NCBI RefSeq assembly: GCF_011752015.1
Contig: NZ_JAAIKA010000002.1
Span: 62,001-126,000 of the forward strand
From: Canibacter zhoujuaniae
Lineage (GTDB): Bacteria; Actinomycetota; Actinomycetes; Actinomycetales; Microbacteriaceae
DNA length: 64,000 nucleotides
Direction of reading: 5' to 3'
Translations under genes and position numbers: made by a program
In this document: positions 29,247 through 42,858 of the stretch, in pieces
Position numbering within the stretch: position 1 is the first letter of the stretch
How the letters are laid out: every line of letters starts with the position of its first letter
The notes under the pieces: generated by a model
Database searches by the model: none
Told to the model about the DNA's origin: nothing
What the model saw: only the letters and a program-made list of their open reading frames with translations

Positions 29247-30572
29247 ATGACTGCAACTCAAACTTGGACCCCCGCAGAGCGCAAACGCGCGTATCGTGCC
29301 GGTTGGGGCGCCTTTGTCGGTACCACGATTGAATGGTACGACTTTTACGTCTACGCAACGGCTGCCGCAATATACTTTCCAACGCTGTTCTTTCCGGAAC
29401 AGGATCGCTTCGTCGGAACGATCGCCGCGCTCGCAAGCAGCGCAGTCGCTTTTTTCTTCCGCCCGCTCGGCGGAATCATTTTCGGTCACATCGGTGACCG
29501 TCTCGGCCGCAGACCCGCTCTTGTTATCACTCTGGTAATGATGGGTGTCGCCACTGTCGCAGTAGGCTGCCTGCCGACATACGCGGCGATTGGGGTTGCA
29601 GCGCCGATCCTTCTTCTCCTGTTCCGCGCTGCGCAGGGTTTGGCTGTCGGCGGAGAGTGGGGCGGTGCCGCACTCATGAGCGTGGAGAGCGCACCGGCAG
29701 ATAAGAAGGGCTTTTTCGGCGGCTTCACGCAGCTGGGCAACCCCGGTGGCGCCCTCCTAGCGACCGGCATCTTCTATGTGATGGAGTTGTTTGGCAAAGA
29801 GTGGATGATGGAGTGGGGCTGGCGCATCCCATTCTTGCTGAGCGCAGCCCTCATCGCTGTGGGCTTTTGGGTGCGTAAGAAAACTGAAGAAACCCCGGTC
29901 TTTGAGACTGAGGTGGAATCAGCAGAACAGGGTGCGCCCGTGTGGTATGCGATCCGCCGCAACTGGTGGCCGATCATTCTCGGAGCTTTTATCGTGCTGG
30001 TGCCGTCAGGTGGCTACACCATGGCAACCACATTTGTGCAGAATTACGCAACGAGCCCAGCCATCGGATTTAGTGAGCGGCATATTCTGCTTGCGATGAC
30101 CATCGCATCTTTTGTGGAATTCCTGGTGACACTGCCGGTTGCGGCCCTCGCAGACAAGCTTGGCTCAAAGAAGGTGATGTACATCGGCTTAATCGGTGCG
30201 GTCGTCTGCATGATCCCGCTAATGCTCGCAATCGGTGGGCAGCAGCTGGCTTTGACCTACATTCTCGTATCCCTGATCCGTATCGCGATGAGCGCAACCT
30301 GGGCACCGCTCGCAACTATCATGGCGCAGATGTTCCGCCCGCAAGCACGCTACACCTCAATGTCAATGGCATACGGTCTCGGTGCTGCGCTGTGGGGTGG
30401 CCTCATGCCAATTGTCTCGGTCACGCTTGTGGAAATGACCGGCACAGACTGGAGCGTTGTGTGGCAGTTTATTGTGATGGCGGCGCTAAACTTCATCGCC
30501 ATGTGGCTCGCGCCGCAGTACATCGATGAGCTGCCCAGAACCACCGCTGTGAAAACAACCGGCGCACGATAG
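29247..30572 (+). CDS. MHS-family (MFS) metabolite:proton symporter
   Basis: 441 residues, twelve predicted helices. The start region GTTIEWYDFYVYATAAAIYF and the loop 2-3 motif GHIGDRLGRRPALV are hallmarks of the metabolite:H+ symporter family (relatives of KgtP, ProP, ShiA). AAQGLAVGGEWGGAALMSVE in helix 4 is also diagnostic. It probably imports an organic acid or zwitterion. As first gene of a four-gene run with the amidohydrolase, ThDP enzyme and dehydrogenase, it likely imports their substrate. Substrate not readable from sequence. Confidence 0.9.
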   Translation: MTATQTWTPAERKRAYRAGWGAFVGTTIEWYDFYVYATAAAIYFPTLFFPEQDRFVGTIAALASSAVAFFFRPLGGIIFGHIGDRLGRRPALVITLVMMGVATVAVGCLPTYAAIGVAAPILLLLFRAAQGLAVGGEWGGAALMSVESAPADKKGFFGGFTQLGNPGGALLATGIFYVMELFGKEWMMEWGWRIPFLLSAALIAVGFWVRKKTEETPVFETEVESAEQGAPVWYAIRRNWWPIILGAFIVLVPSGGYTMATTFVQNYATSPAIGFSERHILLAMTIASFVEFLVTLPVAALADKLGSKKVMYIGLIGAVVCMIPLMLAIGGQQLALTYILVSLIRIAMSATWAPLATIMAQMFRPQARYTSMSMAYGLGAALWGGLMPIVSVTLVEMTGTDWSVVWQFIVMAALNFIAMWLAPQYIDELPRTTAVKTTGAR

Positions 30573-30611
30573 AGGCTTGATGCCTGATTCCCATCCAGGC
30601 GGGAATACATT

Positions 30612-32294
30612 ATGAAATCACTTGCAACATTTGATGACCGTAATTCTTCCCTAACGATTGTGACCGCAGAGCGTATTCACACTCTGAACCCTGCTGCTGA
30701 GAGCGCAACTGCGCTGCTTGTGCATAGGGGATCAGTGCTCGCCGTTGGCTCTGTTGCTGAGATCGAACGGATCGCGCTGGCGCAGCAGGAAGAAGTGAAC
30801 AGGGTGGACTATCCAGGCGCAACAATTGTGCCCGGCTTTATAGATGCGCACGCTCATCCGCTGATGTACGGACAAATGCTGTCATGGGTGGATGTTGGGC
30901 CGGACAAAGCTAAGAACATTACGGAGATTGTTGCCCTGCTGCGGGAGGCAGAAAAGCAGCTTCCGCCGGGGGCTGCGCTGCGCGGTTACGGATACGAACA
31001 GCGCAACCTAGCTGAACGGCGACACCCCACCCGACAGGAGCTCGACCAGGTCTCAACATCACGCGAGGTCTACATTATGAACGCCTCCGGGCACGGCGGG
31101 GTCGTAAACTCCTTTACCTTTGCAGTGCACGGAGTGACGCGTGACACACCTAACCCGGACGGTGGCGAGTTTTTTCGAGACGCTAAGGGAGACCTTACCG
31201 GTGAGCTCTCAGACGCCGCCGCCAATGTGCTGACCGGCACCCACGGTGTCAAAATTGGCCACCACGGCCCGAACTTTCATCTCAGCGATGAGCCCGCCGA
31301 GCACCGGCGGCAGCTGCGCGCTGTGCAGACCGAATTCTTTCGCGGCGGAGTGACCACTGTCGGTGATGCGCAGGTGAGCAAGCGTGAAATGGCCGCCTAT
31401 CTTGACCTGGCTGAGCACGGCGAGCTGAAGATGCGTGTCTCGATGTATTTTCTGTCGCATCTGCTTAACCAGATTCTTGATCTTGGGCTGGTTGCTCCAT
31501 TCGGCAACGCCCGCCTGGCAACAGCAGGCATCAAGCTCTATGCTGACGGCACCCTCGGCGGCTGGACCGCGTATTTTCCTGAAGGATATGCGGGGGATCC
31601 GTGCCGCACTGGGCTGCTCTATCACTCACCTGAGGAATACACCGAGCTGGTGAGACTGGCGCACGCAGCTGGGCTGCAAACCGCAACCCATGCCCAATCG
31701 CCAACTGCGATTAAAATGTGCGTCGATGCAATTGAGGCTGCACAGCTTAAGTATCCGAACGCAGATGCTAGGCATCGCATCGAGCACTGCGGCCTGCCCG
31801 CCCCTGCAGAAATCACCAGAATGGCAGCCCTCGGGATCCGCCCCGTCAACCAGACGCAGCACTATTACAATTGGGGCGAAGGCGTGACCCAAGCGATTGG
31901 GACACCCGGTGAGCGCTTCAATCCGCTCGGAGAGTTTCGCGACGCGGGAGTGCCGATCACAATCTCATCGGATGCTCCGGTGGCACCGCCGAAACCACTC
32001 GAAGCGATCCAGGCAGCCGTGACCCGTGTCACACGTCGCGGTGTGCAGCTGGGAGCTGATGCGCTGCGCATCTCAGCACGTGAGGCGCTTCTGGCGCACA
32101 CGTATGAAGGCGCGGTCACACTCGGGCGCGAAAATGAATTGGGATCGCTTGCGGCGGGAAAACGCGCCGACTTCGCCGTGCTCTCAGCCGACCCCCTGTC
32201 TGTTCCAGCGGAGCAGATAGGTAAAATTTCTGTTTTGAGCACTTGGATAGACGGCGAATGCGTCTGGGACACCGACACTGATAACCCACTATAA
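30612..32294 (+). CDS. amidohydrolase-family protein (YtcJ-like)
   Basis: 560 residues. Metal-dependent amidohydrolase (TIM barrel) features: GATIVPGFIDAHAHP with metal ligands His80 and His82, TATHAQSPTAIKM, RHRIEHCG and the ISSDAPVAPP aspartate motif near residue 453. The C-terminal composite beta domain (ENELGSLAAGKRADFAVLSADPL) is typical. This group hydrolyses N-acyl, amidine or cyclic amide bonds; the true substrate is unknown. 39 bp after the transporter gene. Confidence 0.88.
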   Translation: MKSLATFDDRNSSLTIVTAERIHTLNPAAESATALLVHRGSVLAVGSVAEIERIALAQQEEVNRVDYPGATIVPGFIDAHAHPLMYGQMLSWVDVGPDKAKNITEIVALLREAEKQLPPGAALRGYGYEQRNLAERRHPTRQELDQVSTSREVYIMNASGHGGVVNSFTFAVHGVTRDTPNPDGGEFFRDAKGDLTGELSDAAANVLTGTHGVKIGHHGPNFHLSDEPAEHRRQLRAVQTEFFRGGVTTVGDAQVSKREMAAYLDLAEHGELKMRVSMYFLSHLLNQILDLGLVAPFGNARLATAGIKLYADGTLGGWTAYFPEGYAGDPCRTGLLYHSPEEYTELVRLAHAAGLQTATHAQSPTAIKMCVDAIEAAQLKYPNADARHRIEHCGLPAPAEITRMAALGIRPVNQTQHYYNWGEGVTQAIGTPGERFNPLGEFRDAGVPITISSDAPVAPPKPLEAIQAAVTRVTRRGVQLGADALRISAREALLAHTYEGAVTLGRENELGSLAAGKRADFAVLSADPLSVPAEQIGKISVLSTWIDGECVWDTDTDNPL

Positions 32295-32318
32295 ACACAG
32301 CATGTAGAGAGAAAATAT

Positions 32319-33914
32319 ATGCCTACGACACAGAAGCGCACTACCGGATGGGTTGTGCTGGAAACCCTAGCCAACTACGGCATTAACACTGTCTTTGGGA
32401 TCCCCGGCACACACAACCTTGAGTTTTATCGACCACTCGAGACGCTGGGTATCCGGCCGGTGACGACCCGACACGAGCAAGGAGCCGGCTACGGGGCAGA
32501 TGCCTGGTCGCTCCAGACGGGGCTGCCTGGTGTTGTGATCACTACGAGCGGTCCCGGACTATTGAACGCGCTCTCAGCAGCAGGCACCGCATTCGCAGAG
32601 TCACGACCGATGATTATTCTCTCACCCGGTGTCGCCCTCGGCGCAGAGTTCTCTGACTCAGGCACACTTCACGAAACTAAGGATCAGCTCTCAGCTGCTG
32701 CCGCGATTGTTGAATGGGGTCGCCGAGTGAAAACCGCAGAAGAAGCGGTTGCGGCGGTGCACGACGCCTTCGAGCTGTTTGCGACGGGGCGCCCACGACC
32801 GGTTTACATTGAGGTGCCACTAAACATCCTTGAGCAAGAAACCTCGATCTCTGCCTCTGAACTTGCCGCAAAACAGTTCGAGCCGGTGCCAAGCCCCGAT
32901 AAGAAACTGATTGCAGAGGCTGCTGCGCTGCTTTCTGATGCGGTGAATCCGGTGATTCTGGCTGGCGGCGGTGCGCGACGGGCGGGGCAAGAGATACAGG
33001 CTCTCGCTGAAAAACTTGCTGCTCCGGTGGTTACAACACTCAACGGCAAGGGCGTTATCGATGAGCACCATCCACTCGCACTCGGCTCTAATCTGCGTCT
33101 TGCAGCTGCAAGAGAGGTAGCTCAGAAAGCTGATGTCTTGCTGGTGGTCGGATCAAAACTCGGTGAGGCTGAACTCTGGGTGGATGCCTTGCGCGCGCAG
33201 GGCAAAGTTGTGCGCATTGATGTGCTCGAATCACAGCTCAACAAGAATCAGCCAGCAACCGTTGGTATTCGTGCCGACGCGGCTGCAGCCGTGGCCGCGA
33301 TCACAGAGCTGCTTGACGATGCGGATCGCACCTCGGCCATTGACGTGCCCGCAACACTTACCGCAATTAGACAAGAATCCGAAAAGCTCGACGCACTCAA
33401 CACCTCGGTCGGCCAAGCGATTGCGCGGGCGCTGCCGGAAGATGCGATCCTGACCACAGACTCCTCAAAGATTGCCTACTGGGGGCTGCTGAACATGTTG
33501 CAGGTGCGCAACCCGCGCTCTGTGGCCTATATGGCAACATATGCGACGCTCGGATATGGGCTGCCGGCCGCGATCGGTAGCAAACTCGCATCCCCAGAGC
33601 GGCCTGTGGTCGCGGTCACCGGCGACGGGGCATTTATGTTCAGCTTCAACGAGATGCTTACGGTTGTTGAACAGAATCTTGACATCGTCATTCTGGTTGT
33701 TGACAACGGCGGCTTTGCCGAGATTAAAGACAACGAGATCGCGGCAGGTATCAACCCGGTTGCCGTTGATCTCGTGCAGCCGGATTGGGCTGCGCTCGCT
33801 AACGCTTGTGGCGGTGCAGGCACACGCATTAGCTCCGCAGAGGAGCTTGATAAGGCTATTGAAGCAGCAGTTGCTGCTGGCGGTCTGCAGCTCATCCATC
33901 TGCCACTCGCATAG
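32319..33914 (+). CDS. thiamine diphosphate-dependent enzyme (acetolactate synthase/2-oxoacid decarboxylase type)
   Basis: 531 residues with the three-domain ThDP architecture. N-terminal PYR domain has catalytic Glu53 (TTRHEQGAGYGADAW) and TTSGPGLLNALSAAGTAFAESRP. The central domain resembles an FAD/ADP-binding-like fold. The C-terminal PP domain has VTGDGAFMFSFNEM and then VVDNGG, the GDG...N ThDP motif. The N-terminus (NTVFGIPGTHNLEFYRPL with RHEQGAG) recalls 5-guanidino-2-oxopentanoate decarboxylase and benzoylformate decarboxylase more than anabolic IlvB. Likely a 2-oxoacid decarboxylase or lyase in this catabolic operon. Exact reaction uncertain. Confidence 0.85.
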   Translation: MPTTQKRTTGWVVLETLANYGINTVFGIPGTHNLEFYRPLETLGIRPVTTRHEQGAGYGADAWSLQTGLPGVVITTSGPGLLNALSAAGTAFAESRPMIILSPGVALGAEFSDSGTLHETKDQLSAAAAIVEWGRRVKTAEEAVAAVHDAFELFATGRPRPVYIEVPLNILEQETSISASELAAKQFEPVPSPDKKLIAEAAALLSDAVNPVILAGGGARRAGQEIQALAEKLAAPVVTTLNGKGVIDEHHPLALGSNLRLAAAREVAQKADVLLVVGSKLGEAELWVDALRAQGKVVRIDVLESQLNKNQPATVGIRADAAAAVAAITELLDDADRTSAIDVPATLTAIRQESEKLDALNTSVGQAIARALPEDAILTTDSSKIAYWGLLNMLQVRNPRSVAYMATYATLGYGLPAAIGSKLASPERPVVAVTGDGAFMFSFNEMLTVVEQNLDIVILVVDNGGFAEIKDNEIAAGINPVAVDLVQPDWAALANACGGAGTRISSAEELDKAIEAAVAAGGLQLIHLPLA

Positions 33915-33965
33915 CTCCGTTTTACCTGTTTAGGCCAGCCGCCCCACTGTTTTGGAGGATCCATT

Positions 33966-34958
33966 ATGAATGAAAACCAGAAGCCGGTTGCGGTTTACAC
34001 AGATATGGACGACACCGACTTTCAAAGCGGTGTGCGTCTGCTTGAAGACGCCGGATTTGAGGTGCGATACCTCGGCACGCGAAACACTGAACGCATTATT
34101 GCCGCGTCACAGGATGCGGAAGTGCTCTTGCTCGGTTATGCGGAGGCGCCGCGCAGCTTGATTGAGGCACTGCCCAAGCTGAAACTTATCGCCTTAATGT
34201 CGATGGGCTTTAACAATGTTGATATTGAGGCGGCGAATGAGCACGGAGTGTGGGTCACAAATGTACCGGGTGCCGCAACCGAAGAGGTTGCAACGCACGC
34301 GCTCGCACTGCTGCTCGCCGCTGTGCGGCAGCTGTCGTTCTACACCGCACACGCGGTTGCAGATGCTGAACAGTGGAACGCTCGCGCTCCGCTTGCCCCT
34401 GTGCGCCTGAGTGAGAAAACACTCGGCGTTGTGGGGCTCGGCCGGATTGGGAAGGCCTTCGCCGCGATCGCCGGACCGTTGTTTCAAAGGGTTGTGGGCT
34501 ACGATCCCTACCTTCCGGACACCGACGAAACCCGCGCAGAGCTTGCGCGCTACGGTATTGAGCGCAAAAGCCTTGCAGATTTGCAGAGCGGCGCTGATGT
34601 GCTTTCCCTGCATGTGCCGCTGACGGATGAAAACGAGGGGATGATCAACCGTGCGTTTATCGCAGAGCTTCCCGATGGTGCAATTATTGTGAACGTCTCA
34701 CGCGGTGGGCTGATCGACTCACAAGATGCCCGTGATGCGCTCGATGCGGGGAAGCTTGCGGCTCTCGCTCTGGATGTGCTTGATGAAGAACCGCCGGCAG
34801 CAGACCATCCTCTTCTCTCTCACGACCGCGTTGTGCTCACCCCGCACATTGCGTACTACTCGAATCGAACCGATGCAGAATATGTTCGAATTCAAGCCGA
34901 GAACGCTACGAGCTGGCTAGCAACCGGGCGCCCAAAGAACCCCGTAAACACTCCCTGA
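33966..34958 (+). CDS. NAD(P)-dependent D-2-hydroxyacid dehydrogenase
   Basis: 330 residues. NAD motif GLGRIG (157-162), catalytic Arg246 (VNVSRGGLID), Glu275 (LDVLDEEPP) and His294 (LTPHIAYYS) are all intact. It belongs to the D-2-hydroxyacid dehydrogenase family (D-lactate, glyoxylate/hydroxypyruvate or phosphoglycerate dehydrogenases). Strong Shine-Dalgarno GGAGGATCCATT before the ATG. It is last in the transporter operon and would reduce or form a 2-oxoacid linked to the ThDP enzyme. It converges on the FprA-like gene. Confidence 0.9.
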   Translation: MNENQKPVAVYTDMDDTDFQSGVRLLEDAGFEVRYLGTRNTERIIAASQDAEVLLLGYAEAPRSLIEALPKLKLIALMSMGFNNVDIEAANEHGVWVTNVPGAATEEVATHALALLLAAVRQLSFYTAHAVADAEQWNARAPLAPVRLSEKTLGVVGLGRIGKAFAAIAGPLFQRVVGYDPYLPDTDETRAELARYGIERKSLADLQSGADVLSLHVPLTDENEGMINRAFIAELPDGAIIVNVSRGGLIDSQDARDALDAGKLAALALDVLDEEPPAADHPLLSHDRVVLTPHIAYYSNRTDAEYVRIQAENATSWLATGRPKNPVNTP

Positions 34959-34988: not shown

Positions 34989-36254
34989 TTAGTGCTGTGA
35001 GGTCGGTTGCATACCGGCCTCTTTCAGCATCTCCTCGATGCTATCGAACTTGTGTCGCGCCCGCCCACTGCGTGCGGCCTCAATCTCCTTCTGCTCGATT
35101 CGCTTCCAACCGTCATAGTCGATTGTGCTGCCGGGGGTGAGATTGAGTCCGGCCACACCAGACTTTGTGCTGTTAAGATCGGCGAGATCCGCACCAATAA
35201 TTTTTGCAAGCTCAAGCGCATCGATTCGCTGTGAGGCGATTGTGCCCCGAGGCCCGCGGCGAGCCCAGCCACCCACGTAGAGACCTTGTTCAATCTTGCC
35301 GGTCTCGCGCCCTGCCTCAGTAACCGGAACAAGCGGATCACCCTGAAAGCCAATGGCGGTGATAACACTGTCGGTCTTTATTAGTGCGTGGGTGCCATCT
35401 TCGCCCACGATTTCGAGTGTGTCTACGAGATTGCCACCGTGCACTTCGTGCGGTGCGAACCCAAACCACCAGTGAATAACCCCACGTAGCTCTGGGTCTG
35501 CATCGGTGCATTTATCCTGCAAGATGGTGAGGATATCCCGCCGATTCTCGTTTGTCACCGCGGCTAGGTCACCCGACCCAAAGTGAAGTTCATGGCGCAC
35601 ATGCTCAAAGTGAGTCATCTCACGCAGCATGGAATCATCGAACTTCGCTTGATCAACACCGCTGCGACTGACGAGGTGGAGCTCACGGAGCTTCCCGCTA
35701 AGCTGCTGATGATTGTCGTCGTGCACATCTGAGCCGGTAAACTCAGTGCCGTTCTTAGTCAGGAGCCGCATGCAGTCGATCGCTACGTTTCCCGCCCCGA
35801 CAACGATGCAGACTTCGCCGAGCGAGTAGTCAAGTGGCAGCTTTGCTTCGGGGTGACTATTTAACGCGCGGGTGATGTATCCGGCACCAACCACACCGGG
35901 TGTAGCGCTTCCTGGGATGTCGAGTTGCCGATCCTCATGGAGTCCGGTTGCGACAATAACCGCGTCGAAGTGCTCGCGGATCGTATCTAACTCAACGTGC
36001 TCGCCAACATTGAGATTGCCAACGAACTTGACACCCTGACGCTCGAAAAGACGCGCAAATTGCTTTGTGACACCCTTGGTGCCCTGATGGTCAGCTGCAA
36101 CACCAAACCGCGCAAGACCGAATGGAACTGGCAGACGATCAAACACCGTAATTTCTGCATTTGGGACGGTCTTAAGCAGCGCCTGTGCAGAGTAGCAACC
36201 CGATGGCCCAGAACCGATAATGGCTATTTTAGGTGAGTTTGAGTCAGACATCAT
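34989..36254 (-). CDS. FprA/adrenodoxin-reductase-like flavoprotein (XplB-like), probable flavodoxin reductase
   Basis: 421 residues. FAD motif GSGPSG (14-19), then the adrenodoxin-reductase signature DRLPVPFGLARFGVAADH, NADP motif VVGAGNVAIDCMRLL, and the C-terminal FAD-contacting GWARRGPRGTIASQ. This family takes hydride from NADPH and passes single electrons to a ferredoxin or flavodoxin. A flavodoxin gene lies directly upstream (about 65 bp) on the same strand, and a P450 is in the divergent operon, so this is the likely first link of the P450 electron chain. The C-terminus (residues about 365-421) is a helical tail absent from minimal FprA proteins. The start could be either of two adjacent Met codons. 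Confidence 0.9.
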   Translation of the reverse strand: MMSDSNSPKIAIIGSGPSGCYSAQALLKTVPNAEITVFDRLPVPFGLARFGVAADHQGTKGVTKQFARLFERQGVKFVGNLNVGEHVELDTIREHFDAVIVATGLHEDRQLDIPGSATPGVVGAGYITRALNSHPEAKLPLDYSLGEVCIVVGAGNVAIDCMRLLTKNGTEFTGSDVHDDNHQQLSGKLRELHLVSRSGVDQAKFDDSMLREMTHFEHVRHELHFGSGDLAAVTNENRRDILTILQDKCTDADPELRGVIHWWFGFAPHEVHGGNLVDTLEIVGEDGTHALIKTDSVITAIGFQGDPLVPVTEAGRETGKIEQGLYVGGWARRGPRGTIASQRIDALELAKIIGADLADLNSTKSGVAGLNLTPGSTIDYDGWKRIEQKEIEAARSGRARHKFDSIEEMLKEAGMQPTSQH

Positions 36255-36319
36255 TATCCAATCAATGCGCGTCGTTGCAGACGAAGATGTATTAGCGAAT
36301 AGGCGGCGTTGTGTGTGAT

Positions 36320-36769
36320 TTATTCAAAAGCTGCGAGGGCCTCTGGTGCCCATGCAACCGCAAGATCCGATGCATCATCCGGTGATGCCGCATCGTGACG
36401 CCCATACTCCCCAACACGAGATGCGCCGAGCGATTCAAGAGCGGCAACTACTCGCTCGCTGCCCTTCGAATAATTTTCGTAAGTGCTGTCGCCAAGCCCA
36501 AACACTGCGAATCGCACGCCAGTAAGATCGGGCTTTTCATTTTCTAGTGCGGCAACAAACGGCTGTGCGCTGTAGGGCAGATCGCCCTCGCCGTGTGTTG
36601 AACAGATGATGAGATAGCGATCGTCGCTATTAAACGCATTTACGTCAACGTTTGCAAGATCATCTACATCAAGATCTTCGCTAGTTTCTGCTGCAAGAGC
36701 ATCTTCGATATCGGATGCGACAAGCTCCGCGTTACCGCTCTCGGTGCCAAACAGAATGCGAACAGCCAT
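36320..36769 (-). CDS. flavodoxin (short-chain, P450-reductase/MioC type)
   Basis: 149 residues from ATG 36769, which has AAGGGA 8 bases upstream; an ATG at 36802 in frame lacks a site. FMN loops are TESGNAE (9-15), STHGEGD (57-63) and FGLGDSTYENY (90-100). This pattern is that of flavodoxin domains in sulfite reductase, CPR and XplA rather than classical long-chain flavodoxins. It is co-oriented with the FprA-like reductase gene and divergent from the permease/P450 operon, so it probably shuttles electrons to that P450. No ferredoxin gene is in the cluster, which strengthens the assignment. Confidence 0.93.
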   Translation of the reverse strand: MAVRILFGTESGNAELVASDIEDALAAETSEDLDVDDLANVDVNAFNSDDRYLIICSTHGEGDLPYSAQPFVAALENEKPDLTGVRFAVFGLGDSTYENYSKGSERVVAALESLGASRVGEYGRHDAASPDDASDLAVAWAPEALAAFE

Positions 36770-37044
36770 TAGAGACTTCCCTTCTTGGGTGCAACGCTGC
36801 ACCCTGATTTACTTGAACCAGTAGTAACTTTATCTATTTTGCGAACTTCGGTGAGCAAATGCAAATGGACACGAACACGGCGCGGCGAGCAGCAGAAAAG
36901 CCTGAAACTTCGAGGTTTTATGCGACGTTAGGCAGCTACGAAGATTTAACACGCGGTGCGGTTAAGGAAATTTTGCAAAAGCGCTAACATTGTGATCTAA
37001 TTCCTTTTTGTCAAAGGCAATGACGCTGAAGATAAGGATATCTA
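36770..37044. promoter_or_regulatory. divergent control region between flavodoxin and permease/P450 operons
   Basis: Plus strand: TTGCAA (36973-36978), 17-base spacer, TCTAAT (36996-37001), then a leader with AAGGAT before ATG 37045. The -35 is embedded in the 10-bp palindrome TTTTGCAAAA (36971-36980). Minus strand: TTGCTC (36858-36853), 16-base spacer, TAGATA (36836-36831). The flavodoxin leader contains a perfect stem GGGTGCA-ACGC-TGCACCC (36787-36804). The palindromes are candidate operators, but no regulator gene is adjacent. Confidence 0.6.
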
Positions 37045-38679
37045 ATGACTGATAGCACCACAGTAGCTGCTCTCTCAAATGCTCATGATGAGCACTCAGA
37101 ACAGGGATTCAAACGTGAAATGGGTTTCTGGGGAAACCTCGCGCTTGGATTTACGTATCTATCTCCCGTAGTAGGTGTTTACACCACCATCGGGCTCGCG
37201 CTTGCGATAGCGGGCCCGATTTCATTTTGGACGCTTGTAGTCGCGGGCCTCGGGCAGCTACTTGTTGCTCTTGTCTTCGGCGAGATTGTCTCCCAATACC
37301 CGATTGCCGGCGGTATTTACCCTTGGAACCGCCGCCTCTGGGGCGCAAAATGGGGGTGGATGAGTGGTTGGGTATACGCAGTCGCGATAAACGCCACGAT
37401 TGCTTCCGTTGCGTTTGGTGTCGGGCCGTTCCTCGGCGCATTCTTGGGAATCGAGACGAACCCAGGCACAAACGTGATTCTTGCTCTGGTGGTGATCGCC
37501 TTCTCCACGCTCATGAACTTTGGTGGAACCAGACTCCTGTCAGTTGTTGCGTTTATCGGTTTCTCGCTTGAAATTATTGCAACCATAGTAATCGGAATTT
37601 GGCTGCTTGTTGCCGCTCGTCAGCACGACCTCAGCGTATTCTTCACCGATTTCCGCCCACTAGACGTACAAGAAAACGAACCACTGTTTGTTGCATTTGC
37701 TTTCTCTGCAATCCTTGGAATCTTCCTGTACTACGGTTTCGAGGCAAACGGTGACGTCGCAGAAGAGGTTAAGGATCCGGGTCGTGTGATCCCGAAAGCG
37801 ATGCGCACCACGCTTTACGTTGGCGGTGTTGCCTCAATGTTCATCGGCATGGGCTTGATCCTTGCAATTCCAGATTATGCAGCGGTGATTCGCGGTGAGA
37901 ACACAGACCCGGTCACTGGAATATTCCAGACCACATTCGGCCCAATCGGTTTTAAAATCGTGCTGCTGCTCATTATGATCTCGTACGTATCGTGCACGAT
38001 CTCCCTCCAAGCAGCTGCATCACGACTCCTATTTTCAATGGGACGAGACAAGCAGCTTCCAGGTTGGAGCGCACTGCGCAAGTTCTCTGTGAAACGAGCT
38101 GTTCCGCCGTACGCGCTGCTTGTTGCGGGTATTCTGCCAGCATTGATCGTGGTTGTGTCGCTCTTCTCGGCCGACGCGCTGATTGCGGTTATTTCGTTTG
38201 CATCACTCGGCATCTACCTCGCCTTCTTCTCGGCGGTGCTTGCATCATTCCGTGCTCGCCTAAAGGGATGGCAGCCAAAGGGGCCGTTCAAGATGGGCCG
38301 TTGGGGATGGCCAGTGACCATCGCTGCCGGTCTTTACCAAATCGCTGCGATGATCATGTTGGTTTGGCCGGTTGAAGACGCTGAAAACTGGTTCCAGCGC
38401 TATCTCGTCTCTGCTGTCGGTGTGATAGTGCTTGTAATCGGTGTCATCTATCTCTTTACTACACGTCCAGACAAACGCGGTGGTGGGCCAGCAGGTGACG
38501 CACACACGGGTGTCGTTAACATGCACTACGCAAGTCCAATTGCTCCATCCGAAGAAATTGTTGATATGGCCGTGCTCCTTTCTGGCGGCAAGCCACACTA
38601 CTACCCCCACGCTCCTCAAAATGAGTCGAGCAGCGATTCGTCAGCGAAAAATTCACAAAATACTGAAGGGGAAAAATAA
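37045..38679 (+). CDS. APC-superfamily amino acid/amine permease
   Basis: 544 residues, about twelve helices. The start GFKREMGFWGNLALGFTYLSPVVGVYTTIGLALAIAGP (first conserved block) and FGEIVSQYPIAGGIYPWNRRLWG are typical of the ACT/GABA-permease-like branch of the APC superfamily. ANGDVAEEVKDPGRVIPKAM in the middle is the usual loop motif. The last 80 residues are cytoplasmic and Ser-rich. It overlaps the P450 gene by one base (TAATG), so the two are translated together. It probably imports the amine or amino acid processed by the downstream enzymes. Confidence 0.9.
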   Translation: MTDSTTVAALSNAHDEHSEQGFKREMGFWGNLALGFTYLSPVVGVYTTIGLALAIAGPISFWTLVVAGLGQLLVALVFGEIVSQYPIAGGIYPWNRRLWGAKWGWMSGWVYAVAINATIASVAFGVGPFLGAFLGIETNPGTNVILALVVIAFSTLMNFGGTRLLSVVAFIGFSLEIIATIVIGIWLLVAARQHDLSVFFTDFRPLDVQENEPLFVAFAFSAILGIFLYYGFEANGDVAEEVKDPGRVIPKAMRTTLYVGGVASMFIGMGLILAIPDYAAVIRGENTDPVTGIFQTTFGPIGFKIVLLLIMISYVSCTISLQAAASRLLFSMGRDKQLPGWSALRKFSVKRAVPPYALLVAGILPALIVVVSLFSADALIAVISFASLGIYLAFFSAVLASFRARLKGWQPKGPFKMGRWGWPVTIAAGLYQIAAMIMLVWPVEDAENWFQRYLVSAVGVIVLVIGVIYLFTTRPDKRGGGPAGDAHTGVVNMHYASPIAPSEEIVDMAVLLSGGKPHYYPHAPQNESSSDSSAKNSQNTEGEK

Positions 38680-39869
38680 TGTCGGAATCCGCGTACCTAG
38701 ATATTGCTGATAGCAATTTCGCTATCAGCTCTGATGAAGTTGAACAGGCACGAGAAACAAATTGGTACGCAAAAACTAACTACGGGCTTGCGGTGCTCAG
38801 TTATGAAGACAATGCTGCTTTGATGAAGAGTAAAAATCTTAAGCAGGGCAGTGCTGAGTGGCCTGATCTGAACGGTGTCCACAGTGGTGTCTTCTATGAC
38901 TGGTGGAAAGAAAACCTGCTTGTGCTTGAAGGTGACGATCACGACCGCTTGCGCCGCCTTGTGCAGCCAGCCTTCTCGCCAAGAAAGATTAAAGATCTTG
39001 GCGATCGCTTCGATGCCTTAGCAAACGAGCTTATTGACAACTGGATTGATAAGGGTGAGGTTGAGTTTGTTGAGGAGTTCGCAGCTCCGTTTGCCACCCG
39101 TGTTCTGTGCATCATGCTTGGGATCCCTGAAACTGAGTGGGCTCACATCAACGATCTAGGGTCGAAGGTCGGCGCAGCGCTTGGTATCACCATTAAGGAA
39201 CAGATCGAAACTATCGATGCTGCGTTAAAGGAGCTGCAGCAGTATGGTCGCGACCTCCTCGAGGATCGTCGCAAGAACCCACAAGACGATTTCGTGACGC
39301 GACTTGTTGAAGCAAACGCAGAGGGCGACCAGCTGTCTAACGAAGAGCTGGAGAACATGATTGTGCTCCTCATTTTCGGAGGCATGGACACCACCCGAAA
39401 TCAGCTGGGGCTTGCGCTGTCGTCGTTTGCGAAACAGCCTGACCAGTGGGAGAAGCTTGCGGCGGATCCTGACAAGTATCGAAAAGCCGCTGTTGAGGAG
39501 GCACTGCGTCTGAACCCAACCACTCGCTGGGTGACACGCGAAGCGGCTGAAACGTTTGAGCACAAGGGCTTGACGATTGAAAAAGGCACCACAGTGCACA
39601 TGTTCACTGAAACCTCTGGGCGTGACCCGGAGGCGTTCGAAGATCCAAACAGGATTGACCTCGATGCCGTCCGCAAACCTCACTTTGCTTTCGGCGGCGG
39701 TGCTCACCACTGCATTGGTCACTTCGTCGCGAGGTCTGACATGATGGCGGCACTGCCTGCGCTGGCAACCCGCATCACTGATCTCAAACTTGGTGAGGAT
39801 CAGGAATGGCTGCCAGATTCAGGAAACACGGGCCCAGAGCGTCTTCCCGTGTCTTTCACAAAACGCTAA
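38679..39869 (+). CDS. cytochrome P450
   Basis: 396 residues, soluble bacterial type. I-helix oxygen-activation motif GGMDTT (234-239) has the acid-alcohol pair Asp237/Thr238. ExxR is Glu274-Arg277. The heme loop FAFGGGAHHCIGHF has axial Cys345. All catalytic features are intact, so a monooxygenase is expected. It overlaps the permease gene and precedes the GS-like gene. Redox partners are encoded in the divergent pair (flavodoxin, FprA-like reductase). Unlike XplA, there is no fused flavodoxin domain, and the I-helix is canonical. Substrate unknown; neighbours suggest an amine. Confidence 0.96.
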   Translation: MSESAYLDIADSNFAISSDEVEQARETNWYAKTNYGLAVLSYEDNAALMKSKNLKQGSAEWPDLNGVHSGVFYDWWKENLLVLEGDDHDRLRRLVQPAFSPRKIKDLGDRFDALANELIDNWIDKGEVEFVEEFAAPFATRVLCIMLGIPETEWAHINDLGSKVGAALGITIKEQIETIDAALKELQQYGRDLLEDRRKNPQDDFVTRLVEANAEGDQLSNEELENMIVLLIFGGMDTTRNQLGLALSSFAKQPDQWEKLAADPDKYRKAAVEEALRLNPTTRWVTREAAETFEHKGLTIEKGTTVHMFTETSGRDPEAFEDPNRIDLDAVRKPHFAFGGGAHHCIGHFVARSDMMAALPALATRITDLKLGEDQEWLPDSGNTGPERLPVSFTKR

Positions 39870-39931
39870 CGACCCGGTGTGCGCGGCAACGATGCAGCGG
39901 CACATCACATAAATAAAAATCGGATGGAGAT

Positions 39932-41395
39932 ATGGCCACTACAGAAAAATCACAGGTTGGAGCAAAGATCGTTGCAGCGCAGAAGGCTGGTAAGGATCTT
40001 GCAAAAACCTTTCACAAAGAACTCGAAAAAGCTCTCGCTGACAACGGTGCGGCGAGCCGCCACCGGGAGAACAATCTAAAACAAGAGACTGTTGCAGAGC
40101 TGAGTGAAAAAATTGAGCGTTCAGGAGTGAAGTACATCTACTATATGCTCCCAACGCTTGGTTCACGCACCGTTGCGAAGATGGTTCCAGCAAAACACTT
40201 TGTTCGCAATCTCGAAAAAGGAATCGCATTTCACCGCACCGCGTTGAGCGATTTGCAAACGAATATTTTCGGCAACCTTATTGGTGGCGGTGTCGATGCG
40301 AAGGAATTCATCGGCCTGCCAGATCCGGAAACTTTCCAAGCACTGCCTTGGGACGGTGAGGTTGGTCGCATCTTCTGCTCAGCATACGAGCCAGATCACT
40401 TCAACGAGGTTGGCGGGCGGCCACTGCAGGTGGATTCACGCGCTACCATGAAGCGGATCCACCAGGTTATGAAAGATGTGTTCGGCCTGACGATGAAATC
40501 TGGCACGGAGCCTGAAATGGTCTGGGCTGGTGAGTCGATTAAGACGAATATTATTCCTGGCCACAGCCCCGCCTATCAGGTGGACAACCTTGAGGTCATG
40601 CGACCTATATACAAGCGTGTGCAGGAGTATGCAACAGAGCTTGATTTTGACATGATCGAAGGCGACTTTGAAGACAGGGGTCAGATCGAGCTGAACTGGA
40701 TGTTCGATGAGATCGAGAACACAGCGGATCGTCTTGTCACCTACCGCCAGATCTGCAAGCAGGTTGCTCGCGAATTTGGTGTTCAAGCAAGCTTCATGCC
40801 AAAACCTTACGCCGGTTCAATGGGTAACGGCTGCCACCACAACATTTCACTGTGGGATGAGGAAGGCAACAACACCTTTGAAGACCCGGGCCGCACTGAG
40901 CTGCACCTGTCCCAAATCGGCCGGTGGGTTGTCGGCGGCATCCTGAAGTATGCGCCCGGCATGATGGCAGTCTTCTCGAGCACCGTGAACAGCTACAAAC
41001 GCTTTTGGGATCCAGGCCAGTTTGCGCCAGCTCGCGGCAACTGGGGTCTTGATTCACGCGGCGCTATGGTGAGAATCTCGGCAAACGGTCGCGCGGAAGT
41101 GCGCGTACCAGATGCTGCGGTGAACCCGTACCTGTCACACGGCCTGCTTGTTGCTGCGGCTGCGGCTGGTATCGGTGAGCAGATCGAGCCACCAAAGCCT
41201 GACACTGAGGGCGATGCGATGCCGATGAACCTTGGTGATGCACTTGAGTTGTTTAAATCAAGCGAACTTGTGCAGGCCGTGCTCCCGCCAAAACTGGCAG
41301 AGCTTTACTATGAGATGAAATATGATGATTGGGCTCGCTACTGCGGTGCGATTACCGAGTGGGAGTTCAACCAGTACTGGGAGGCGATCCCCTAA
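39932..41395 (+). CDS. glutamine synthetase-family gamma-glutamyl-amine ligase
   Basis: 487 residues. Catalytic (beta-grasp plus guanido-kinase fold) domain with metal ligands Glu193/Glu195 (GTEPEMVWAG), Glu253 (DRGQIELNW), His302/303 (GNGCHHNISLW), NSYKRF and RVPDAAVNPYL. The GS core motifs deviate from true GlnA (GSGMHxHxS; NRxKRL), and no adenylylation Tyr loop is evident, so it is more likely a PuuA/GlnA-like ligase that joins glutamate to an amine. The N-terminal 100 residues carry a Lys-rich coiled segment. It overlaps the next gene by one base. Operon mates (P450, C26 hydrolase) fit a gamma-glutamylated pathway. GS-like genes accompany P450s in mycobacterial piperidine/morpholine catabolism (recall). 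Confidence 0.88.
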   Translation: MATTEKSQVGAKIVAAQKAGKDLAKTFHKELEKALADNGAASRHRENNLKQETVAELSEKIERSGVKYIYYMLPTLGSRTVAKMVPAKHFVRNLEKGIAFHRTALSDLQTNIFGNLIGGGVDAKEFIGLPDPETFQALPWDGEVGRIFCSAYEPDHFNEVGGRPLQVDSRATMKRIHQVMKDVFGLTMKSGTEPEMVWAGESIKTNIIPGHSPAYQVDNLEVMRPIYKRVQEYATELDFDMIEGDFEDRGQIELNWMFDEIENTADRLVTYRQICKQVAREFGVQASFMPKPYAGSMGNGCHHNISLWDEEGNNTFEDPGRTELHLSQIGRWVVGGILKYAPGMMAVFSSTVNSYKRFWDPGQFAPARGNWGLDSRGAMVRISANGRAEVRVPDAAVNPYLSHGLLVAAAAAGIGEQIEPPKPDTEGDAMPMNLGDALELFKSSELVQAVLPPKLAELYYEMKYDDWARYCGAITEWEFNQYWEAIP

Positions 41396-42111
41396 TGACA
41401 GAAAAACTTCGATTGGCGTGTATCGACTCACCCGCGATGCCACTGTTTGGGCTCGCAGATGCGAACGGTGTGCGCGACGGTTATGAACCAGAGGTTGCTA
41501 AGCTGCTCGCTGAAGCAACCGGCAGGGTAGTCGAGTGGGTTATGATGCCCTGGGATGACATGCTGCCATCGGTGCAGCAGCACCGTGTTGATGCAGTGCT
41601 GTGCGGCCAGGGAATTATCCCCTCACGAGAAGAGCAGGTCGACTTTGTGCGACCCTATGCGGTCTTCAACGAATCGGTGCTTGTTAGGGCAGGAGATCCG
41701 GCGCGCAGCCCTGAAGATCTCAACGGGTACAAGGTTGCTGCGATTGCTAACAGTGCAAATATGCGATTGGCAGAAACTTTCCCTGGTGCTATTCTGGTGC
41801 CGTTCGGAGCCAGCGATGATGTCTTCTCAGACATGATTGAGGCGGTTCGATCCGGTGAGGTTGACGCGATGGTGGATGATGATGTGGTGACGGTGCCGCT
41901 CGGTGAAGAAGCTGACTTTGATCTAGCATTCACCGCAGAAACCCGAAACCCGTGGGGCGTTGGGGTTGCGAAGGATTGCCCTGAGATGTTCCGTCTCCTC
42001 AACGATGCGATGACCACGATCATCGAGAACGGAAAGCTCAAAGCAGCGTGGAACAAGTGGTTTCCGCATCTGCCGTATCCGGAAGAATCCTTAGAGGGAG
42101 CAACTAAGTGA
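41395..42111 (+). CDS. solute-binding-protein-fold (family 3) protein without signal peptide
   Basis: 238 residues from ATG 41395, overlapping the GS stop (TAATG). The fold is clear: RLACIDSPAMPLFGLADANGVRDGYEPEVAKLLAEATG, AVLCGQGIIPSREEQVDFVRPYAVF, GVGVAKDCPEMFRLLNDAMTTIIENGKLKAAWNKWF. It has no hydrophobic signal sequence or lipobox, and there are no ABC permease or ATPase genes nearby. It is therefore predicted cytoplasmic. It may be an intracellular ligand sensor, a chaperone for a toxic intermediate, or an enzyme like cyclohexadienyl dehydratase, which evolved from this fold. It overlaps the next gene (AAGTGA). Confidence 0.82.
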   Translation: MTEKLRLACIDSPAMPLFGLADANGVRDGYEPEVAKLLAEATGRVVEWVMMPWDDMLPSVQQHRVDAVLCGQGIIPSREEQVDFVRPYAVFNESVLVRAGDPARSPEDLNGYKVAAIANSANMRLAETFPGAILVPFGASDDVFSDMIEAVRSGEVDAMVDDDVVTVPLGEEADFDLAFTAETRNPWGVGVAKDCPEMFRLLNDAMTTIIENGKLKAAWNKWFPHLPYPEESLEGATK

Positions 42112-42809
42112 GTGAAAAACCGCTGATCGGAGTCCCTGCTATGTCCTCTGCGCAGGTCAAGGGGCTCCGCAAGAGCGGATCCACAGTATCGGATACCGTC
42201 GTGAAAGCTATTACGGCTGCCGGCGGAATTCCCGTGCTTATCAGTCCCTTTGCGCCTGATGAGATCTGGGATAGCGTAGCGGGAATCGTCCTCCCCGGTG
42301 GGAACGATGTGACCCCGAGCCGATACGGGCAGGATCCTCACCCAACTTACGGACCAACCGATTTTGAGGGTCAGGATGAGGCCGATCTGCGTGCTATTTC
42401 TGTTGCTGAAGAACGCCGCATCCCTGCGCTTTTAATTTGTCGTGGGATGCAATTGTGGAACGTGCACCGTGGCGGTGACATGATTCAAGATATTGAAAAT
42501 TCAAAGGATCATGTGGGAACAGAGCATGACGTTGCGATTGCTTCTGACTCGCTTTTGCATTCTCTGTTCGACGGGGCTGACACGGTTAACGTGTCAAGCT
42601 ATCACCACCAGGCGCTTGGCCGCATAGGTGATGGGCTGCGCGTCGTCGCGCACGGATCAGACGGCACCGTTGAGGCGATTGAAGATCCAGAGTTCGAGAT
42701 CGTGGCGGTGCAGTGGCATCCAGAAGACCGTTTCGAGCGTATCGCGTCTGACGCGCGATTGTTTGAATGGGTTGTCGCGGCCGCGAAATCACACAGAACC
42801 ACAGCGTAA
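42108..42809 (+). CDS. peptidase C26 gamma-glutamyl hydrolase (PuuD-like)
   Basis: 233 residues from GTG 42108, with AGGGAG upstream and a 4-base overlap with the preceding gene. Class I glutamine-amidotransferase fold: IVLPGGNDVTP, nucleophile Cys111 (LLICRGMQLWNV) and His204/Glu206 (VQWHPED). The family cleaves gamma-glutamyl amides, as PuuD does with gamma-glutamyl-GABA. It is the last gene of the permease-P450-GS operon and the natural partner to reverse the GS-like ligation after oxidation. Confidence 0.92.
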   Translation: MSEKPLIGVPAMSSAQVKGLRKSGSTVSDTVVKAITAAGGIPVLISPFAPDEIWDSVAGIVLPGGNDVTPSRYGQDPHPTYGPTDFEGQDEADLRAISVAEERRIPALLICRGMQLWNVHRGGDMIQDIENSKDHVGTEHDVAIASDSLLHSLFDGADTVNVSSYHHQALGRIGDGLRVVAHGSDGTVEAIEDPEFEIVAVQWHPEDRFERIASDARLFEWVVAAAKSHRTTA

Positions 42810-42820
42810 ACCACGCATCA

Positions 42821-42858
42821 CGGCGCGCTGGCAGGAGGAAATACCTGTCAGCGCGCCG
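42821..42858. terminator. strong convergent hairpin between C26 gene and acs
   Basis: 15-bp arms CGGCGCGCTGGCAGG (42821-42835) and CCTGTCAGCGCGCCG (42844-42858) have one G-T mismatch and an 8-base loop. No long T tract follows on either strand. It sits between two converging genes and probably terminates both. Confidence 0.65.

Follow-up and report, generated by a model that had tools for sequence, protein, structure and literature searches.

With a probability of roughly 0.6, we read an operon of Canibacter zhoujuaniae as a cyclic-amine catabolic operon of the PipA/MorA type (CYP151-like) that carries a gamma-glutamyl branch and an exchangeable cassette made up of a P450 and its reductants. 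The operon lies in a window of 64,000 nucleotides, the whole stretch of DNA that was analyzed. Among related loci, the P450 and its redox partner appear to change together while the permease, the GS-like ligase and the SBP-fold protein stay, and the conflict between gene trees fits cassette exchange, a pattern that is new here. The locus consists of the following features.

34989..36254, minus strand: FprA / adrenodoxin-reductase-type FAD reductase, 421 aa (Pyr_redox_2)
36320..36769, minus strand: short cindoxin-like flavodoxin, 149 aa (Flavodoxin_1, E 4.5e-29)
36770..37044, no strand: divergent intergenic region with the presumed promoters and control sites of both halves (direct reading)
37045..38679, plus strand: APC-family permease, 544 aa, presumed amine/amino-acid importer (AA_permease_2, E 4e-41)
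38679..39869, plus strand: cytochrome P450, CYP151-like, 396 aa (p450 profile and motifs)
39932..41395, plus strand: GS-like ligase, 487 aa, presumed gamma-glutamyl-amine synthetase (Gln-synt_C, E 2e-66)
41395..42111, plus strand: SBP_bac_3-fold protein, 238 aa, presumed cytosolic (SBP_bac_3, E 8e-27, profile run with a longer start)
42108..42809, plus strand: Peptidase C26 / gamma-glutamyl hydrolase, 233 aa (Peptidase_C26, E 2e-47)
42821..42858, plus strand: terminator-like hairpin 3' of the operon, 15-pair stem with 12 G-C (consensus scan only)

The initial annotation placed the reductase and flavodoxin genes divergent from a permease-P450-GS-SBP-C26 operon, and the positions and families of all seven genes agree with that description. 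The operon is tightly packed, with overlaps of 1 base between permease and P450, 1 base between GS and SBP, and 4 bases between SBP and C26; the 62 nt between P450 and GS form the sole gapped junction from permease to C26. For the SBP gene, the ATG at 41395 is a likelier start than the TTG at 41329 of the open reading frame list, and the stretch from 41329 falls within the GS gene. The ATG at 36769 fits the flavodoxin better than the GTG at 36802. A consensus scan listed no sigma-70-like sites in 36770..37044 and found 7 terminator-like sites in the region, as opposed to 7.8 in shuffles. The same gene order is found again in many relatives; thus, the arrangement in the window is not due to chance.

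The catalytic motifs ascribed to the P450 at the outset, Cys345 and Asp237/Thr238, were all found in the alignment. Across 45 aligned P450s, the cysteine is present in 45 and the Asp/Glu and Thr positions are each kept in 43. Profile searches of the organism's own genome returned one P450, the window gene, and one Flavodoxin_1 gene, the window flavodoxin. The best PDB match of the latter is cindoxin (4oxx, E 2e-27), whereas those of the reductase are adrenodoxin reductase (1cjc) and FprA (1lqt), with E of about 9e-39. As the initial annotation had it, the system is unfused, with three separate genes, the flavodoxin and FprA genes being divergent from that of the P450. It had also noted the lack of a ferredoxin gene; none lies within the cluster, and a search of the genome for Fer4_15, Fer4_13 and Fer2 gave no matches. 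With a single P450, a single flavodoxin and no match to these three ferredoxin families in the genome, the window flavodoxin is the likely electron partner of the window P450, a pairing that is nearly forced.

We found a GS gene at 28 of 38 related P450 loci, and 26 of those 28 encode SBP and C26 as well (L055, the same record as L038, was left out of the count and the trees). All 28 GS-linked loci have a redox-partner gene: flavodoxin and FprA in 16, ferredoxin and FDR in 3, and ferredoxin only in 9. None of the 28 has both flavodoxin and ferredoxin. Conservation between the divergent halves had been set beforehand as a test, and both halves recur in 15 other loci. The flavodoxin half can be replaced: it is kept in 16 of the 28 GS-linked loci and gives way to ferredoxin in 12.

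AU tests bearing on cassette exchange gave p=0.0026 for the P450, 3e-6 for GS, 3e-6 for the permease and 0.022 for SBP, values that are generous because the tested groups were named after identities and the trees of other genes had been viewed. The FprA, P450 and GS trees are quick trees with SH-aLRT support only. The P450 tree leaves out L074 and L076 (XplA P450s) and L066 (a P450 match with an internal stop), the GS tree leaves out L067 and L068 (cut contigs), and the SBP tree uses 20 of 26 sequences. The GS of L037 reads as two pieces, one of which is in the GS tree. A single origin of all GS-linked FprA/flavodoxin pairs was considered and dropped: it gave p=0.03 in the AU test for FprA and p=0.115, not rejected, for flavodoxin, so two recruitments are favored, not proven. 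Reversed gene order and separate P450 clades also speak for two recruitments, and the window pair was probably recruited separately.

A GntR/FCD regulator paired with a cache protein is found at 23 of the 28 GS-linked loci, and the window operon is one of the five without this pair. The three FCD regulator genes of its genome all lie on contigs other than the window's, and a search for GntR in four stretches from two of the genome's contigs (C2 and C4) gave one match only, a weak one of 32%. The P450 tree raises the question of a biosynthetic cluster, in which the P450 would decorate an amine-derived metabolite: the window P450 clusters with Streptomyces P450s, one of which, plasmid-borne, adjoins ectA/ectB-like genes. 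We consider this very improbable, however, as the importer, the hydrolase and the regulator pattern point to catabolism, GS, SBP and C26 are missing from all five Streptomyces loci examined, and a homologous cluster is induced by molinate (PMC9477822).

That cluster belongs to Gulosibacter molinativorax, a member of the same family, for which PMC9477822 describes two P450/reductase/carrier/GS clusters, bioI and pipA. The same report gives a log2FC of >6 for bioI and its reductase on the azepane herbicide molinate, no significant molinate induction of the pipA cluster, and identities of about 53% and 52% of the P450s of strain ON4T to PipA and MorA; it interprets GS as serving plain ammonium assimilation. 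Two loci of genome G351, L060 and L044, match each other at 72.6% (P450), 48.1% (FprA) and 71.0% (flavodoxin), compared with the 72, 48 and 69% printed for bioI and pipA (PMC9477822), and are probably the published clusters. The window P450 is 55 to 58% identical to the two G351 P450s. Through these proteins, probably BioI and PipA of ON4T, the sequence comparison ties it indirectly to the cyclic-amine P450s PipA and MorA, as the initial annotation suggested. The window permease, GS, SBP and C26 are nearer to L044 (probably pipA) than to L060, and FprA and flavodoxin are about equidistant from both.

Much of the gene set is thus already in print. The view that no pathway with this exact set had been described has to be given up for the part comprising reductase, carrier, P450 and GS, which appears with expression data in PMC9477822. 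The bioI/pipA section of that paper makes no mention of SBP, C26 or cassette exchange. Our literature search returned no paper on the window locus itself among the matches listed.

The GS-like and C26 proteins score under every curated NCBIfam cut-off that they matched: 179.6 as opposed to 650 for PuuA (NF045547), 85 as opposed to 266 for PuuD (NF008471), and 269.4 as opposed to 469.6 for type III GS / GMAS (TIGR03105). No relatives of the GS were found in viral contigs. Aldehyde dehydrogenase matches occur at 12 of the 28 GS-linked loci, and 9 of these matches reach at least 55%; the locus of the query itself is included. The window operon has no adjoining aldehyde dehydrogenase gene; two enzymes encoded elsewhere in the genome are 48 to 50% identical to the cluster enzyme. 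The nearest PDB entries of the GS-like protein, a type III GS and a glutamate-methylamine ligase, would suit a P450 that dealkylates an acyclic amine and a ligase that salvages the freed small amine of the methylamine type. This N-dealkylation seems improbable to us, since the closest literature cases are N-heterocycles (PMC9477822). The aldehyde dehydrogenase genes of some relatives suit an amino-aldehyde, but an aldehyde from dealkylation would fit them too.

The SBP-fold protein is presumed to be cytosolic, as no hydrophobic leader was seen by eye in the N-termini of 26 of 26 orthologues. Aligned to AncQR, Arg78 and Asp162 are invariant in all 26; after LAO/HisJ, we take these to be the residues that bind the alpha-carboxylate and alpha-amino group of the ligand. 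Binding of a plain amine was dropped in view of the invariant carboxylate-binding arginine. The structure model (pLDDT 95) resembles amino-acid- and opine-binding proteins, and its matches include binders of N-substituted amino acids; the VIA-align matches are all close in Z, so their ranking gives no ligand. The protein may represent a cytosolic use of the periplasmic-binding-protein fold.

We infer the following route for the cyclic-amine operon. The permease would import a small, probably cyclic secondary amine of the pyrrolidine, piperidine or azepane type. Electrons would pass from NADPH through the FprA-like enzyme and flavodoxin to the P450, which would hydroxylate the carbon adjoining the nitrogen and thereby open the ring, giving an amino-aldehyde. 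The GS-like enzyme would add glutamate to an amine, either the amino group of the aldehyde, preventing re-closure, or the amine substrate itself. Oxidation of the glutamate-capped aldehyde may then fall to an aldehyde dehydrogenase from elsewhere in the genome, the SBP-fold protein may hold the gamma-glutamyl intermediate, and the C26 hydrolase would release glutamate together with an omega-amino acid, a step known from the Puu route. The P450 and its reductants would be swapped as a unit inside a conserved permease-GS-SBP backbone.

The initial annotation had put gamma-glutamylation before oxidation, with the P450 acting on the gamma-glutamyl amide and C26 freeing the product. Opening of an N-acylated hemiaminal would yield a gamma-glutamyl aldehyde, GS, SBP and C26 are encoded together in 26 of 28 loci, and SBP retains an alpha-amino-acid pocket, all of which agrees with this order. 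It is weakened because MorA, with ferredoxin and ferredoxin reductase, oxidizes morpholine itself (cited in PMC9477822) and nothing shows GS acting first; moreover, 10 of the 38 related P450 loci are without GS. We therefore regard it as rather unlikely.

A broader reading is tentative, and we doubt it more than we trust it: the operon family may encode an as yet unassigned pathway in which cyclic amines are processed through gamma-glutamylation and a cytosolic protein of the binding-protein fold carries the glutamylated intermediate. Whole P450-reductant cassettes would have entered its fixed importer-ligase-carrier backbone repeatedly: flavodoxin/FprA on two or more occasions, ferredoxin either alone or together with FDR, and plasmid-borne variants with a diflavin reductase or the xpl set. 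The RDX locus would be another product of this exchange. Uncertainty over which redox protein serves a bacterial P450 is common and limits the use of the enzyme. This one family offers a natural series of kindred P450s beside flavodoxin/FprA, ferredoxin/FDR or diflavin reductase, so partner specificity can be tested through swaps.

PipA of M. smegmatis and MorA of Mycobacterium HE5 belong to the lineage of the window P450 at one remove. P450s of one family share >40% identity, and the PipA/MorA systems have a GS-like neighbor gene. Like them, the window P450 has the acid-Thr pair and Cys ligand and adjoins a GS-like gene (39932-41395); unlike MorA, which uses ferredoxin and ferredoxin reductase, it stands beside flavodoxin and FprA. 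As in the bioI and pipA clusters, reductase, carrier, P450 and GS are adjacent, and L060 and L044 also have SBP and C26. However, the reductase in these two loci adjoins the P450, ahead of the carrier, unlike in the window.

The Puu gamma-glutamyl putrescine pathway combines an importer, a GS-like ligase and a C26 hydrolase in one route. The window differs from it in having a P450 instead of the PuuB oxidase, an operon without aldehyde dehydrogenase, and NCBIfam scores under the cut-offs. P450cin acts on cineole, and to our knowledge its system has no GS, SBP or C26. It resembles the window in its separate FAD reductase, flavodoxin-like FMN protein and P450 (PMC9687028), and in its free flavodoxin, cindoxin.

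Plasmid pGKT2 of Gordonia KTR9 (L069) carries, at its xplA/xplB RDX locus, the row GntR, cache, P450 (52.7% identical to the window protein and adjoining xplAB), GS (51%), FprA (XplB, 38%) and flavodoxin domain (45%). GS and XplB share one open frame there, as the initial annotation stated, unlike in the window, and flavodoxin and FprA fall on other branches. Of the proposed link to xpl, the homologous regulator-cache-P450-GS-FprA run stands, but the XplA flavodoxin and XplB group apart from the window pair. In the flavodoxin tree, the XplA domains join cindoxin and a flavodoxin from a Rhodococcus plasmid (94/69, not starred), the Microbacteriaceae proteins make up a separate group (95/90, starred; midpoint root for both), and XplB of pGKT2 and DN22 is alone on a long branch. 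Descent of XplA from a window-type flavodoxin was rejected, as the tree puts XplA flavodoxins in another lineage. The XplA P450, 25% identical to that of the window, has lost its acid-Thr pair (PMC8081977), whereas the window P450 retains D237/T238. XplA carries its flavodoxin as an N-terminal fusion to the P450; in the window the two are separate divergent genes. By sequence, pGKT2 and the window cluster both have an FprA-like reductase. The plasmid has the regulator-P450-GS neighborhood in common with the operon family, which places the xpl explosive-degradation locus in a wider genomic context.

All seven genes described in the initial annotation were found in the window cluster (34989-42809):

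Minus strand: flavodoxin, then FprA (an FprA/adrenodoxin-reductase-type enzyme)
Plus strand: APC permease, P450, GS-like ligase (GS), SBP_bac_3-fold protein (SBP), Peptidase C26 (C26)

On the plus strand, neighbouring genes overlap at three of four junctions, and the SBP likely starts at 41395, the final nucleotide of the GS stop codon. The P450 retains the proposed catalytic motifs D237, T238 and C345. Profile searches of the genome (~1.47 Mb, four contigs) returned one P450 and one Flavodoxin_1 match, both located in the cluster, and no matches to three ferredoxin families, Fer4_15, Fer4_13 and Fer2, which were detected in 5, 5 and 12 of 14 control genomes, respectively. Thus, the cluster flavodoxin is the likely electron partner of the P450, a pairing that is almost forced.

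At E<=1e-60, the window P450 was matched in 29 of 398 family genomes and 2 of 5 genus genomes, and at E<=1e-90 in 3 of 396 phylum genomes (own genome included throughout). GS was visible within the short stretch returned for 24 of the 30 family P450 places and, on longer reading, for one more (L006, read as L043). The five places without GS have the most divergent P450s (46-51%). Thirty-eight loci were read, including the window and after removal of one duplicate; they are not a random sample, since the P450 itself was used to find them. The gene set, whose conservation in Microbacteriaceae relatives had been proposed as a check, recurs: GS lies near the P450 in 28 of the 38 loci (GS-linked loci), and 26 of these 28 also carry SBP and C26, the contigs of the remaining two stopping inside GS. 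GS is lacking from 10 loci, five of them from Streptomyces and five with divergent P450s. Gene absence in short stretches such as L031 (10 kb) and L035 (4 kb) carries little weight. Leucobacter coleopterorum and Leucobacter sp. OH1287 possess the entire set.

Each GS-linked locus had one kind of redox partner, and none of the 28 had both kinds: flavodoxin with FprA (16 loci), ferredoxin alone (9) or ferredoxin with ferredoxin reductase (3: L031, L032 and L043). A single-cluster ferredoxin and its reductase are placed between P450 and GS in Paeniglutamicibacter terrestris (L032) and in a MAG contig labelled Kocuria (L031). With the query locus counted, a GntR/FCD regulator and a cache-domain protein occur in 23 of the 28, and an aldehyde dehydrogenase (ALDH) match in 12, 9 of these at >=55% identity. 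The window cluster has neither the GntR/FCD-cache pair nor an ALDH alongside; two ALDHs elsewhere in the genome are 48-50% identical to the cluster ALDH. An adjoining run in the window (29247-34958, plus strand) encodes an MFS transporter, an amidohydrolase, a ThDP enzyme near the 5-guanidino-2-oxopentanoate decarboxylase model (score under cut-off) and a 2-hydroxyacid dehydrogenase; its sole match in the 27 other GS-linked loci was a 27% amidohydrolase in L068.

In the P450 tree, the 14 P450s of the common flavodoxin arrangement formed one clade (SH-aLRT 100), and those of the window, L040, L031 and Streptomyces a separate one (99). In the GS tree, the window, L040 and L031 clustered with loci L042, L044, L048, L049 and L050 (100). 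The GS grouping was rejected when imposed on the P450 tree (AU p=0.0026), as was the P450 grouping on the GS, permease and SBP trees (3e-6, 3e-6 and 0.022); the tests covered the P450, GS, permease and SBP trees, with 26, 26, 25 and 20 rows. These rejections suggest, from sequence, that the P450 and its redox partner travel separately from the permease-GS-SBP backbone. The FprAs of the window and L040 fell with the reductase domains of triple-fusion proteins (98), apart from other GS-linked FprAs; a single GS-linked clade gave p=0.03 for FprA and 0.115, not rejected, for flavodoxin. Gene order agrees with the FprA grouping: flavodoxin precedes FprA upstream of the permease in the window and L040, whereas FprA precedes flavodoxin, adjoining the P450, in the other 14 flavodoxin loci.

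Triple fusions of P450, FprA-type reductase and flavodoxin in single open frames of ~1000 aa or more were seen in 11 of 15 stretches read (L120-L127, L129, L133 and L134), with L120 and L127 checked by Pfam. The nearest match to the P450 part of L127 was PDB 6g71, which we take to be CYP1232A24 of Arthrobacter. L128 carries a 989-aa fusion in a different order, FprA-flavodoxin-P450 (5777-8746, minus strand). No paper on natural fusions of this kind was found in the open-licence literature searched.

No leader was seen by eye at the SBP N terminus in any of 26 orthologues. The AlphaFold model of the window SBP (pLDDT 95.0, pTM 0.89) matched amino-acid and opine-type binding proteins, with 4zv1/4zv2 at the top in Foldseek and, among many ties, SocA (glucopine, deoxyfructosyl-glutamine) in VIA-align (Z 27.9, rmsd 2.3, 227 residues). 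Arg78 and Asp162, invariant in 26/26 orthologues, align with the positions at which LAO-type proteins bind the head group of an amino acid. Since a gamma-glutamyl compound retains such a head group, which Arg78/Asp162 could bind, the SBP may bind the gamma-glutamyl intermediate.

In the chain that we infer as best supported, the importer would bring the substrate in, NADPH-FprA-flavodoxin would drive ring hydroxylation by the P450, the ring would open, the product would receive a gamma-glutamyl cap, ALDH would act on the capped product, and C26 would release the final one. The initial annotation had placed glutamylation before oxidation; we prefer the P450-first order, given that morpholine is a substrate of the MorA system (cited in PMC9477822).

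PMC9477822 describes two P450 clusters, bioI and pipA, in Gulosibacter molinativorax ON4T. Their P450s share 72% identity with each other and ~53% and 52% with PipA and MorA; each cluster has a contiguous "ferredoxin reductase" (48%) and carrier (69%), and GS gene numbers adjoin those of the clusters. On molinate, bioI and its reductase rose by log2FC>6, with no significant rise of pipA. Two clusters in one genome analyzed here (P450 72.6%, FprA 48.1%, flavodoxin 71.0%) lie at 437 kb and 3.23 Mb, about the expected place of genes 437 and 3051. Given these agreements, that genome is probably the ON4T strain, with L060 as the bioI cluster and L044 as the pipA cluster. Both contain SBP and C26. 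For permease, GS, SBP and C26, the window proteins resemble those of L044 (64, 68, 60 and 55%) more than those of L060 (47, 58, 54 and 42%); FprA and flavodoxin are equidistant.

The pGKT2 xpl locus encodes, in order, an FCD regulator, a cache protein, P450 (52.7% identical to the window's), GS (51%), FprA/XplB (38%) and XplA with a flavodoxin domain (45%). The GS-XplB fusion mentioned in the initial annotation is a single open frame there. The suggested xpl kinship holds for the shared P450-GS run and fails for the XplA flavodoxin, which groups outside the window lineage; pGKT2 xpl therefore looks like a parallel assembly on a common P450-GS theme rather than an ancestor. In DN22, plasmid-borne xplAB adjoin a permease with 51% identity to that of the window, and the amine P450 is absent. 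On a Paracoccus sp. TOH plasmid (L070, 2049-13442), an amine-type P450 (51%) is accompanied by a diflavin reductase and by two genes each for GS, amidotransferase/C26 and ALDH. Rhodococcus plasmid pLRE138 (L076, 2912-9367) bears an XplA-like flavodoxin-P450 fusion beside FprA, an APC permease and succinate-semialdehyde dehydrogenase; neither GS nor a P450 of the amine type turned up in that stretch. A Streptomyces plasmid (L073, 1827-11095) has a related P450, ferredoxin and reductase within an ectoine-like biosynthetic gene set. The window system has already been described in part, as the published Gulosibacter clusters; in our reading of the open-licence papers searched, the parts that may be new are the exchange of P450 cassettes, the SBP as a partner and the gene neighbourhood shared with xpl.
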